A stretch of DNA of 64,000 nucleotides from assembly GCA_023078555.1 (NCBI GenBank), contig CM041197.1:11691257-11755256 (forward strand). Direction: 5' to 3'. Each line of letters opens with the position of its first letter. The stretch's first letter is position 1. Below are positions 52 through 64,000 of this stretch, piece by piece. This stretch comes from Ulva prolifera. Taxonomy: Eukaryota > Chlorophyta > Ulvophyceae > Ulvales > Ulvaceae. The translations under genes were made by a program, and so were the position numbers. Under the pieces are notes generated by a model. It saw only the letters and a program-made list of their open reading frames with translations. It was not told where the DNA came from and searched no databases.

Positions 52-9927
<9,876 letters not shown>

Positions 9928-59059: not shown

Positions 59060-60014
59060 GCTGACAGGCCGCTGCTGGGGTGATGAAGGTGCCACAGCTG
59101 GGGACCGACCCCATACCGTTGGCATCAGCTGACAGGTGGCTAGGCACAACCTGAAGTGCACAGCTGCTGTACAGGGCATGCTGTCCTAGTGCCATCAGCT
59201 GTCACCAGAGACGGATGAGCAGTGGACCAATGCATGGCAGCCCGCATCAGCTGGCAGGGCAAGCCCGCGCATGCAGCCTGAGGTCTGTCGCTATCGCCAC
59301 TGAGCCTTGTGAAGTGCACCTGATCATATCGAGTCGATAGGGGTCAACATCACCGACATAGCCATGCCCTGCATCCAGGAACGGATGCAGCAATGGCCGC
59401 ACTAGTGCACAGGTGGGCAGTGCCACCTTGGTGCTGCCTCCATGCCATGGAGGCCATGCATGCCATGGAGAGTCCATGGAGGTCATGACGACCTGTCCTG
59501 GCGGAGGAGGTGGAGGTGGGCGTGGGCTGGGACAGCCTCTAGGATGTACCACCATACCACGTGGCCACTATGCCACTGATGATGATTAAAACTAAAAAAT
59601 TTTGCAGCATGACACCACAAGGCCCTGAATGATCGGACCACCGTGTGGGAGATTACCACTGACCTTGGGAGCACCGCTCTATCTGCACTCCAACCATGCA
59701 TGGGACCCTCCGCTTCAGCCAGTATGATTTGTTGCATCAATGAGGCATTACATATGATATTATGAAAGCTATACGGTTTGTGCAAGTATGAATTACTGTC
59801 GCACACGGGGTTTGTCTGTGAACTGAACCACCTGAGCGAGACCACATTTGATGCTTTGCACATTTGATGCTTCGTACGCTGCTCAAGATCCGTTATGCAA
59901 ACAGGGCGCCCATGTTGCCACAAAAAGGAGTGCTGCTACAGCGCCACCGAGTGCAAAGACCACAGAATTGCCGGTAGGTACGCACCTGCGCTGGCAGGCA
60001 GGCTGCTGTGTTCT

Positions 60015-60114
60015 TGTGGCAATCCAGTGATATGGCCGCTATACCACTGGACCCTTGCACGTCGCGACGTGCAAGGATCCAGTGGTATAGCGGCCATATC
60101 ACTGGATTGCCACA
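60015..60114. mobile_element. 100-bp palindromic inverted dimer of the 45-bp element, with 5-bp TSD
   Basis: Arms 60015-60064 and 60065-60114 are reverse complements with a single mismatch (60052/60077) and no loop. Each arm starts TGTGGCAATCCAGTGATATG and resembles a whole 45-bp monomer (CACTGGACC near its inner end). GTTCT flanks both sides (60010-60014 and 60115-60119), an exact 5-bp target duplication. No coding capacity. Confidence 0.85.
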
Positions 60115-60689
60115 GTTCTGCACAACACTGTTCAGGTTCCCGGGGGCTGCGCGCAGATGGGTAAAGCAAGCAACATGTGGGCGTCGAAGCACTGTCATTG
60201 ACGGGAAAGACAACAATTACAAGCATTTCACATTTCATCTGGGGTTCCGTGTGCCCGCACTGAGCTGCCAGTGTTGTCGCAGCAGTCAAGCTGCAATGCC
60301 TTGAACCGGTGGTGCCGAACGATTTCTTCAGCCGAGTTCGGCTCGCTTGGTTTTTTGTGTCCCGTGCTCAGATCATACTTTCATGCGAGAAGGCTGCACC
60401 AACGCGGACCTGGCATGCACACGGACCTGGCATGCATACGGCCGGCCCAGGGCATGGTGGAGGGTGCATATGCGTGGGGCGGACCCGCAGCGCGGGCTGG
60501 GGCAGTCAGACTGAGTCACATCTGCCTCAGCGCTGCTCTGCTGCAGCTAGTTGGCCAGCACATAGTCCGGACTGGGGCTGAGCTGGGCACCTAGGTGTAC
60601 GTTGTAGCAGACCACCCAATACGCTGTGGTGGATTCTTAGCCCGCGGGCTCCTGGCGCCAGGGTCCAGGCCCCCCCGGGGGAAGGGGGG

Positions 60690-60733
60690 TTGGCAATCGT
60701 GTGATGTGACTGCTATACCCATGCATTGCCACA
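60690..60733. mobile_element. 45-bp element, diverged copy (44 bp)
   Basis: Begins TTGGCAATC and ends GCATTGCCACA, with GCTATACC inside as in the copy at 60015. One base shorter; no target duplication visible. Confidence 0.5.
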
Positions 60734-63980: not shown

Positions 63981-64000
63981 TGTGGCAATCCAGTGATATG
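63981..64000. mobile_element. 45-bp or dimer element, cut by the window edge
   Basis: The last 20 bases are identical to the left end of the element at 60015 (TGTGGCAATCCAGTGATATG). The rest lies outside the window. Confidence 0.6.

Follow-up and report, generated by a model that had tools for sequence, protein, structure and literature searches.

TRIM elements are recognised by a length below about 1 kb without retrotransposon genes, by a duplication of 4–6 bp and by TG...CA ends. Their terminal repeats are identical and direct, with a primer-binding site downstream of the left one and a polypurine tract ahead of the right one. Close to the lower limit of size stands FRetro129, described as 292 bp long with 85-bp terminal repeats (PMC3281118), and the TRIMp3 group is reported to comprise Cassandra, Helenus and Ajax (PMC10886601, PMC7215508). 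Duplications of 5 bp are described for fungal and plant Helenus, and the fungal elements are linked to Copia (PMC10886601, PMC7215508). Our literature searches listed no published description of a palindromic-ended copia hitchhiker. Foldback MITEs are palindromic and short and lie within a duplicated target, and parvovirus-type terminal hairpins are imperfect terminal palindromes that occur in both orientations.

We analysed a window of 64,000 nucleotides of Ulva prolifera DNA that contains a 100-bp palindrome (Table 1). This palindrome is probably (at about 0.75) a solo copy of a module, P, that forms the ends of P-INT-P, a miniature non-autonomous retroelement parasitising a resident Ty1/copia retrotransposon; this reading is drawn from DNA sequence. 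Most likely, P would move through copia cDNA, with copia integrase as the inserting enzyme, and would resemble an extreme TRIM whose ends are palindromes. P-INT-P resembles TRIM/SMART elements in having no protein of its own, a length below 0.4 kb, TG...CA ends, a 5-bp duplication, probable mobilisation in trans and a short motif in common with the LTR of its partner, but its ends are palindromes of 45–100 bp, unequal or inverted in some elements, and no polypurine tract lies beside its right end. P-INT-P works like a copia-driven TRIM, and because of the missing polypurine tract we do not file it as a TRIM. Judged by size, it falls within the TRIM limits of length and gene content, and P has both the duplication and ends typical of TRIMs and the terminal inverted repeats with a fixed-length duplication by which MITEs are recognised. 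TRIMp3 elements resemble P-INT in their Pol III-like boxes and, in Cassandra, in tandem LTR-int-LTR-int-LTR arrays (PMC7215508), whereas no tRNA or 5S sequence was recognised in a complete P-INT-P element (L012), the P-INT ends are palindromic, and the A box lies in P but the B box in INT. The resident Ty1/copia has the 9-bp end TGTGGCAAT and the 5-bp duplication in common with P, and the two form mixed-end elements. Unlike foldback MITEs, P appears to be joined to copia at the RNA level, and the likeness to parvovirus-type hairpins is one of form only.

Table 1. Features of the window, P/copia chimeras and P-INT-P composites. Unprefixed positions count from the first nucleotide of the 64,000-nucleotide window; L numbers are genomic loci.
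Feature	Position or locus	Strand	Details
P100, 100-bp palindromic end-module, solo copy	60015–60114	.	inverted repeat 98%, 0 spacer; family match genome-wide
Left arm: 37 bp in common with 45-bp form + 13 bp; C variant at arm position 38	60015–60064	+	
Right arm; T variant at arm position 38	60065–60114	-	
Target-site duplication GTTCT, left copy	60010–60014	+	exact
Target-site duplication GTTCT, right copy	60115–60119	+	exact
A-box-like TGGTATAGCGG, right arm	60083–60093	+	motif scan; mirror copy 60036–60046, - strand, left arm
Old diverged 45-bp relative	7493–7537	.	exact CATGT duplication
Old diverged 45-bp relative	2800–2844	.	duplication agrees at 3/5 bases
Old diverged 45-bp relative	4462–4506	.	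flanks GCCAG/GCCAC, 4/5
Old diverged 45-bp relative, 81%	60691–60733	.	no duplication seen
Start of another P copy, cut by window end	63981–64000	+	exact arm match just beyond, C2:11755284-11755320
Chimera P100-INT(1-144)-polypurine tract-LTR	L003		duplication AGAAG
Chimera P45-INT-RT...LTR	L107		duplication GGTGC (L107/L114)
Chimera P100 (truncated)-integrase...LTR	L117		duplication ACGAG (L117/L118)
Chimera LTR...integrase-CTTT-P45	L119/L120		duplication GCGTG
Chimera LTR...INT(125-193)-truncated P	L115/L116		
Chimera copia 3' end-LTR-poly(A)-INT-P100	L028		
Chimera P45-INT(1-92)-RNase H	L131		
Composite	L012 (=L005)		outer duplication AATGC
Composite	L017		outer duplication TTAAT
Composite	L019		outer duplication GCAGT
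Composite	L020		outer duplication GAGGC
Composite	L021		outer duplication AGCTC
Composite	L024		outer duplication CAGTT
Composite	L026		outer duplication GTTGG
Composite	L031		outer duplication TGATA
Composite	L094		outer duplication CTTTG
Composite	L105		outer duplication CACCT
Composite	L111		outer duplication GTAGA (by eye)
Composite	L132		outer duplication GGCCC (by eye)

The original prediction had described two 50-bp arms without a spacer, and we found 49 of 50 positions to be complementary (98%) with a spacer of 0 bp; its word 'perfect' goes too far, as one pair, C60052 against A60077, is mismatched. The exact GTTCT duplication that it named is present on both sides. By contrast, its reading of each arm as a complete 45-bp monomer, and of the whole as an inverted dimer of such monomers, has to be given up: an arm holds the first 37 bp of the monomer, lacks the last 8 and adds 13 bp of its own (YCCTTGCACGTCG), so that only 37 of 45 bp are in common.

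Genome search and flank tabulation agreed with the predicted transposed, multi-copy element with 5-bp duplications. A 110-bp query matched about forty places at 96–100% identity (82 matches with both strands of the palindrome; 40 of 555 candidates scored). Across the whole 88.9-Mb, 44-contig genome, with up to three mismatches allowed, the 37-bp arm (TGTGGCAATCC...CACTGGA) gave 475 matches, 242 on one strand and 233 on the other, among which an intact P100 counts twice; its reversed control gave none on either strand. The 45-bp near-palindrome P45, which consists of the arm plus TTGCCACA, gave 199 matches under the same conditions (100 + 99; controls 0), and these strands are not double-counted because P45 differs from its own reverse complement at five positions. 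Far from being single-copy, the palindrome centre matched 86 times genome-wide (up to three mismatches), compared with 0 for its reversed control. Many copies are recent, as had been suggested: 62 of the 199 45-bp matches are exact, and the P100 places are 96–100% identical. A larger autonomous element with TGTGGCAATCC ends, also foreseen, was not found as such, and the partner found is a Ty1/copia retrotransposon. A 25-base P pattern had no match in the IMG/VR viral contigs.

To describe the flanks, we tabulated 78 distinct short units, of which 41 were 100 bp and 34 were 45 bp long, the others measuring 59, 76 and 86 bp. The loci behind these flank statistics were best-scoring, first-listed or chosen copies and not a random sample; the match counts above refer to the whole genome. 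An exact 5-bp duplication surrounds 46 of the 75 distinct 45- and 100-bp modules at the loci examined (21 of 41 at 100 bp and 25 of 34 at 45 bp), whereas mismatched pairings of left and right flanks from different copies agreed at 5 bp in 21 of 5,550 cases. Duplications reaching 6 bp were found in 0 of the 75 modules. A SINE with LINE-type insertion was therefore rejected, as it needs duplications of variable length, and those of P are exactly 5 bp. Seventeen of the 20 100-bp modules without a duplication of their own lie in composites or chimeras (L003 and L004 representing one duplicated segment); the remaining three are L016, L027, which is preceded on the left by 22 bp of INT, and L041. 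Similarly, nine 45-bp modules have no exact duplication; three of them lie in composites (L020, and L094 twice), and the other six are L044, L049, L059, L066, L090 and L100. In all, nine of the 75 modules have no duplication and no place in a composite, a point against the copia-driven reading. Exact duplications were also present at P variants of 76, 86, 88, 90 and 93 bp, and at L106 both 45-mers are separately duplicated (TTTAC and CATGG, by eye).

The sequence of P45 equals P100 minus 55 bp between two CACTGGAT repeats, and a deletion across the hairpin would be a plausible origin of P45 from P100. The 45-bp form may nevertheless have come first, with P100 as its young derivative, because a length of about 45 bp is seen in all four diverged relatives within the window. 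At arm position 38, 16 of 41 P100 copies have C in both arms, 12 have T in both and 13 have one of each (L003 and L004 again representing one duplicated segment); the P100 of the window is such a C/T hybrid, and the arms differ at this position in 10 of the 21 duplicated solo P100 modules. The other positions of P100 hold 15 changes that are unmirrored between the arms and none that is mirrored. Judging from these arms, P100 is copied as a whole unit. Snap-back copying of one arm for each new P100 was ruled out, since it would erase the C/T difference that 13 of the 41 copies retain. As a possible source of the P100 arm we also considered a 55-bp monomer such as that of L019, and dropped it (4 loose matches versus 1 for the control). 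Several unusual units were seen along the way. In L064 (1501–1803), about 200 bp with an apparent 8-bp duplication, CGTCGCGA, interrupt a P100 close to its centre, and this piece is perhaps another element inserted into the palindrome. An 88-bp element in L085 (2901–2988) has two nested palindromes and the duplication ATGCC and is a relative with another inner sequence, and a second, unrelated long hairpin (CACAGCTATATATATGACTTTGGCTCCGCG...) lies near a P variant in L045 (about 2240–2310). L127 and L128 contain half-P units that end just past the palindrome centre, with the 5-bp repeats ATCTA and GGTGT at or near the break; they are either one-arm deletions or true half insertions.

Besides its solo copies, P flanks a 194-bp unit, INT. 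Composites of the form P100-INT-P100 at L012, L017 and L024 are 394 bp each and, judged by this size and an INT of 194 bp, would lack retrotransposon genes. L020 pairs a P100 end with a P45 end (P100-INT-P45), L021 is an array, P100-INT-P100-INT-P100, INT is shortened in L026, L031 and L105, and L094 contains inverted INT pairs. One exact outer 5-bp duplication surrounds 12 of the 13 composites in which both outer ends were identified; the sole miss is L110, which has no exact outer duplication. Outside these 13, with one end not identified, are L027, L064, L104, L108, L109, L133 and L134. INT matched at least 43 places (40 of 62 candidates scored), and the 69 INT-to-P junctions found genome-wide (38 + 31; at most one mismatch; controls 0) indicate that INT borders a considerable minority of P modules. 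Among the first 30 exact 45-bp loci (L074–L103), INT or a copia LTR was seen in the examined stretch only at L094. Where P45 stands at both ends (n = 3), the two are inverted in L105 and L110 and direct in L094; P100 is symmetric and hence silent on repeat direction. One end of L132 consists only of TGTGGCAAC before INT, which suggests that 8 bp may be enough for an end, provided that the remainder was not lost afterwards. The structure of INT was not unusual (z −1.13 and 0.51). We found no polypurine tract next to the right P, where INT runs straight into P with ...GGACCCAGCTTT. Taken from the 194 end, INT carries TGGGTCC 5 nt after P, the same distance at which TGGGTCC follows the LTR in copia. 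In the place expected for a primer-binding site, positions +6 to +12 after P read TGGGTCC or TGGGTTC, agreeing with copia at 7/7 or 6/7 bases, but the preceding 5 bases differ, and of the 12 bases GGTTATGGGTCC that follow the LTR of copia only 7 are kept beside P.

The resident copia element is about 5.2 kb long. Its 420-bp terminal sequence was recognised as an LTR because it recurs in pairs on the same strand, spaced by about 4.7 kb (40 of 90 candidates scored); it reads TGTGGGAAG...CATATTGCCACA, and a purine-rich GCGCTTGAGGGGGTG precedes the 3' LTR (pieces L028, L112 and L113). All three copia duplications that we read are exact and 5 bp long: CAGGG, at pieces L028, L112 and L113, GGCTT and GTGGA. 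Pfam matches over the cut-off were RVT_2 in L107 (1.1e-7) and SH3_retrovirus in L117 (9.3e-7), integrase-core matches in L120 and L124 were below it, and L028 and L121 gave no Pfam match; the RNase H and RT pieces at these last two loci are presumed such from copia motifs. RVT_2, the only family profile-searched genome-wide, matched at least 150 places among 676 candidates, which indicates that copia elements are abundant in the genome; the matches listed do not include the copia LTR pairs named here. Read inverted, the copia U5 end is TGTGGCAATATG and has 9 bp in common with the P end. No likeness beyond these 9 bp was detected, as the copia LTR query had no match to P modules at E 1e-3 or better. 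A solo LTR of the copia family compared here was therefore rejected as the identity of P. A complete copia (C1:11906099-11911276, duplication GGCTT) lies 311 bp from the L064 INT-P unit, which has no recognisable left P; an upstream ATACA followed by TG could be the duplication of this unit. The unit is in opposite sense to the copia, and we did not count the pair as a junction.

P is joined to copia at seven loci (Table 1). In all four chimeras in which both ends were read unambiguously, one exact 5-bp duplication surrounds the P end together with the copia LTR end, pointing to one integration that used both ends. The chance of one exact 5-bp match is about 1 in 1024. In L115/L116 the duplication is ambiguous, as GGTAT is possible but P itself contains GGTAT. 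Only L003 and the examined part of L028 were read without gaps; that L107, L115/L116, L117/L118 and L119/L120 are each a single element is taken from their ends, LTR matches and common duplication, across middles of about 0.8–4 kb. At L028, the copia LTR continues through TGTAA plus 14 nt and then passes by way of a run of A's into INT. UGUAA is reported as the major poly(A) signal of Chlamydomonas (PMC4025486). This poly(A) junction at the copia LTR points to RNA. The predicted left boundary of L028 (AAATG plus the copia LTR start) had 0 matches in the genome search. INT lies in the sense of copia in all five chimeras that contain over 50 bp of INT (L003, L028, L107, L115 and L131; p about 0.06, two-sided). 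For L120, we had considered entry of P into the copia integrase gene by homology (GAAGCTTTTGTGGCAATC); this was dropped because an intact copia piece reads GCAGAAG|TGATTTGTG, so that the CTTT of L120 is most simply the tail of INT. The L003 chimera recurs at L004 with the same right flank on a different chromosome (C9 and C1), probably as a segmental duplication.

How might so small a sequence use copia? We propose that P-INT RNA would be copied into cDNA by copia reverse transcriptase, that template switching onto copia RNA could occur during this copying, and that copia integrase would insert products with two TGTGGCAAT-like ends. The enzyme could accept P because the outer TGTGGCAAT of P equals the inverted copia U5 end, and P, being a palindrome, would offer this end in either orientation. 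Solo P modules would then arise by P-to-P recombination, as solo LTRs do, or by direct insertion of P-only DNA. Within this copia-driven scheme, P could be a tiny normal LTR, so that P-INT-P would be a TRIM/SMART element with LTRs of 45–100 bp and single P modules would be solo LTRs. We hold this to be possible, at rather less than even odds. It fits the TG...CA ends, the 5-bp duplication, the LTR-int-LTR order and the TGGGTCC that follows P as it follows the copia LTR, as expected for LTR-type priming; arrays like that of L021 are reported for the Cassandra TRIM (PMC7215508), and solo LTRs derived from 85-bp LTRs are described (PMC3281118). It fits less well with the missing polypurine tract, with the P45 ends that are inverted in two of three elements (L105 and L110) and with the unequal P100/P45 ends of L020, which are unlike LTRs fresh from reverse transcription. 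P is also very short for a promoter plus a poly(A) site, and only 1 of the first 30 exact 45-bp loci has INT or the copia LTR in the stretch examined, whereas complete elements are described as outnumbering solo LTRs by 50:1 to 3.4:1 (PMC3281118). The missing tract and the inverted and unequal ends would be explained if the P-INT-P ends were independent self-complementary hairpins, with the right P folding back to self-prime cDNA and copia integrase accepting the product. Separate inheritance of the ends would yield the mixtures (P100 with P45, P with LTR) as well as the two orientations of P45, and the putative self-priming would make LTR jumps, a polypurine tract and a tRNA primer dispensable; we nonetheless regard this version as unlikely.

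Also compatible with a copia-driven P-INT-P, though somewhat unlikely in our judgement, is that P-INT is a SINE-like Pol III gene resembling TRIMp3, with its A box in P, its B box in INT and a TTTT terminator at the INT/P junction. In minus orientation, TGGTATAGCGG, which we take to be an A box from its general consensus, lies at nt 14 of P45, GTTCGACAC follows 56 nt downstream, and TTTT stands at the INT/P junction. Dinucleotide shuffles reproduced an A–B spacing of 30–90 nt on either strand in 8 of 5,000 cases, and an A box within the first 40 nt of the + strand at the right A–B spacing in 2 of 5,000, but the motifs and the shuffle test were chosen after the sequence was seen. TRIMs with Pol III promoters are described (PMC10886601). 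On L012, however, a tRNA search found none, and Rfam gave no tRNA or 5S family but seven sub-threshold matches, of which five were microRNA hairpin models on P modules and two were weak and outside P and INT. Moreover, L110, an older copy, no longer has the B box, a TTTT terminates INT on its opposite strand too, and a transcript ending at TTTT would be without the right P. A different account would do without copia altogether: P would be a classical foldback MITE, moved by cut-and-paste by a DDE transposase with 5-bp duplications, P-INT-P would be composite MITEs, and the copia chimeras would be secondary. Terminal inverted repeats, the fixed 5-bp duplication, the many solo copies, the inverted P45 ends in two of three elements and the possibly sufficient 8-bp end of L132 are all in keeping with such an element. 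We still consider it quite improbable, as the common duplication in four chimeras indicates single chimeric integrations, the poly(A) junction of L028 points to RNA, and both the duplication length and the 9-bp end agree with copia.

The many near-intact, loop-free 100-bp palindromes indicate that such sequences persist in this nucleus. If P is indeed carried by copia, 45–100 bp would be enough for a mobile sequence that uses a retrotransposon integrase, well under the 292 bp of the element that was presented in 2012 as the smallest LTR retrotransposon (PMC3281118). P seems able to replace copia's own ends, an unusual spreading route for so small a sequence. The mixed P/LTR elements would be natural evidence for the end that copia integrase needs (about TGTGGCAAT) and for template switching, in one case at a poly(A) tail, and a hairpin-ended P-INT-P, if true, would be a retroelement counterpart of hairpin-ended replicons. 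As such families would easily be annotated as MITEs, retro-derived hitchhikers may hide among 'orphan' MITEs with 5-bp duplications.
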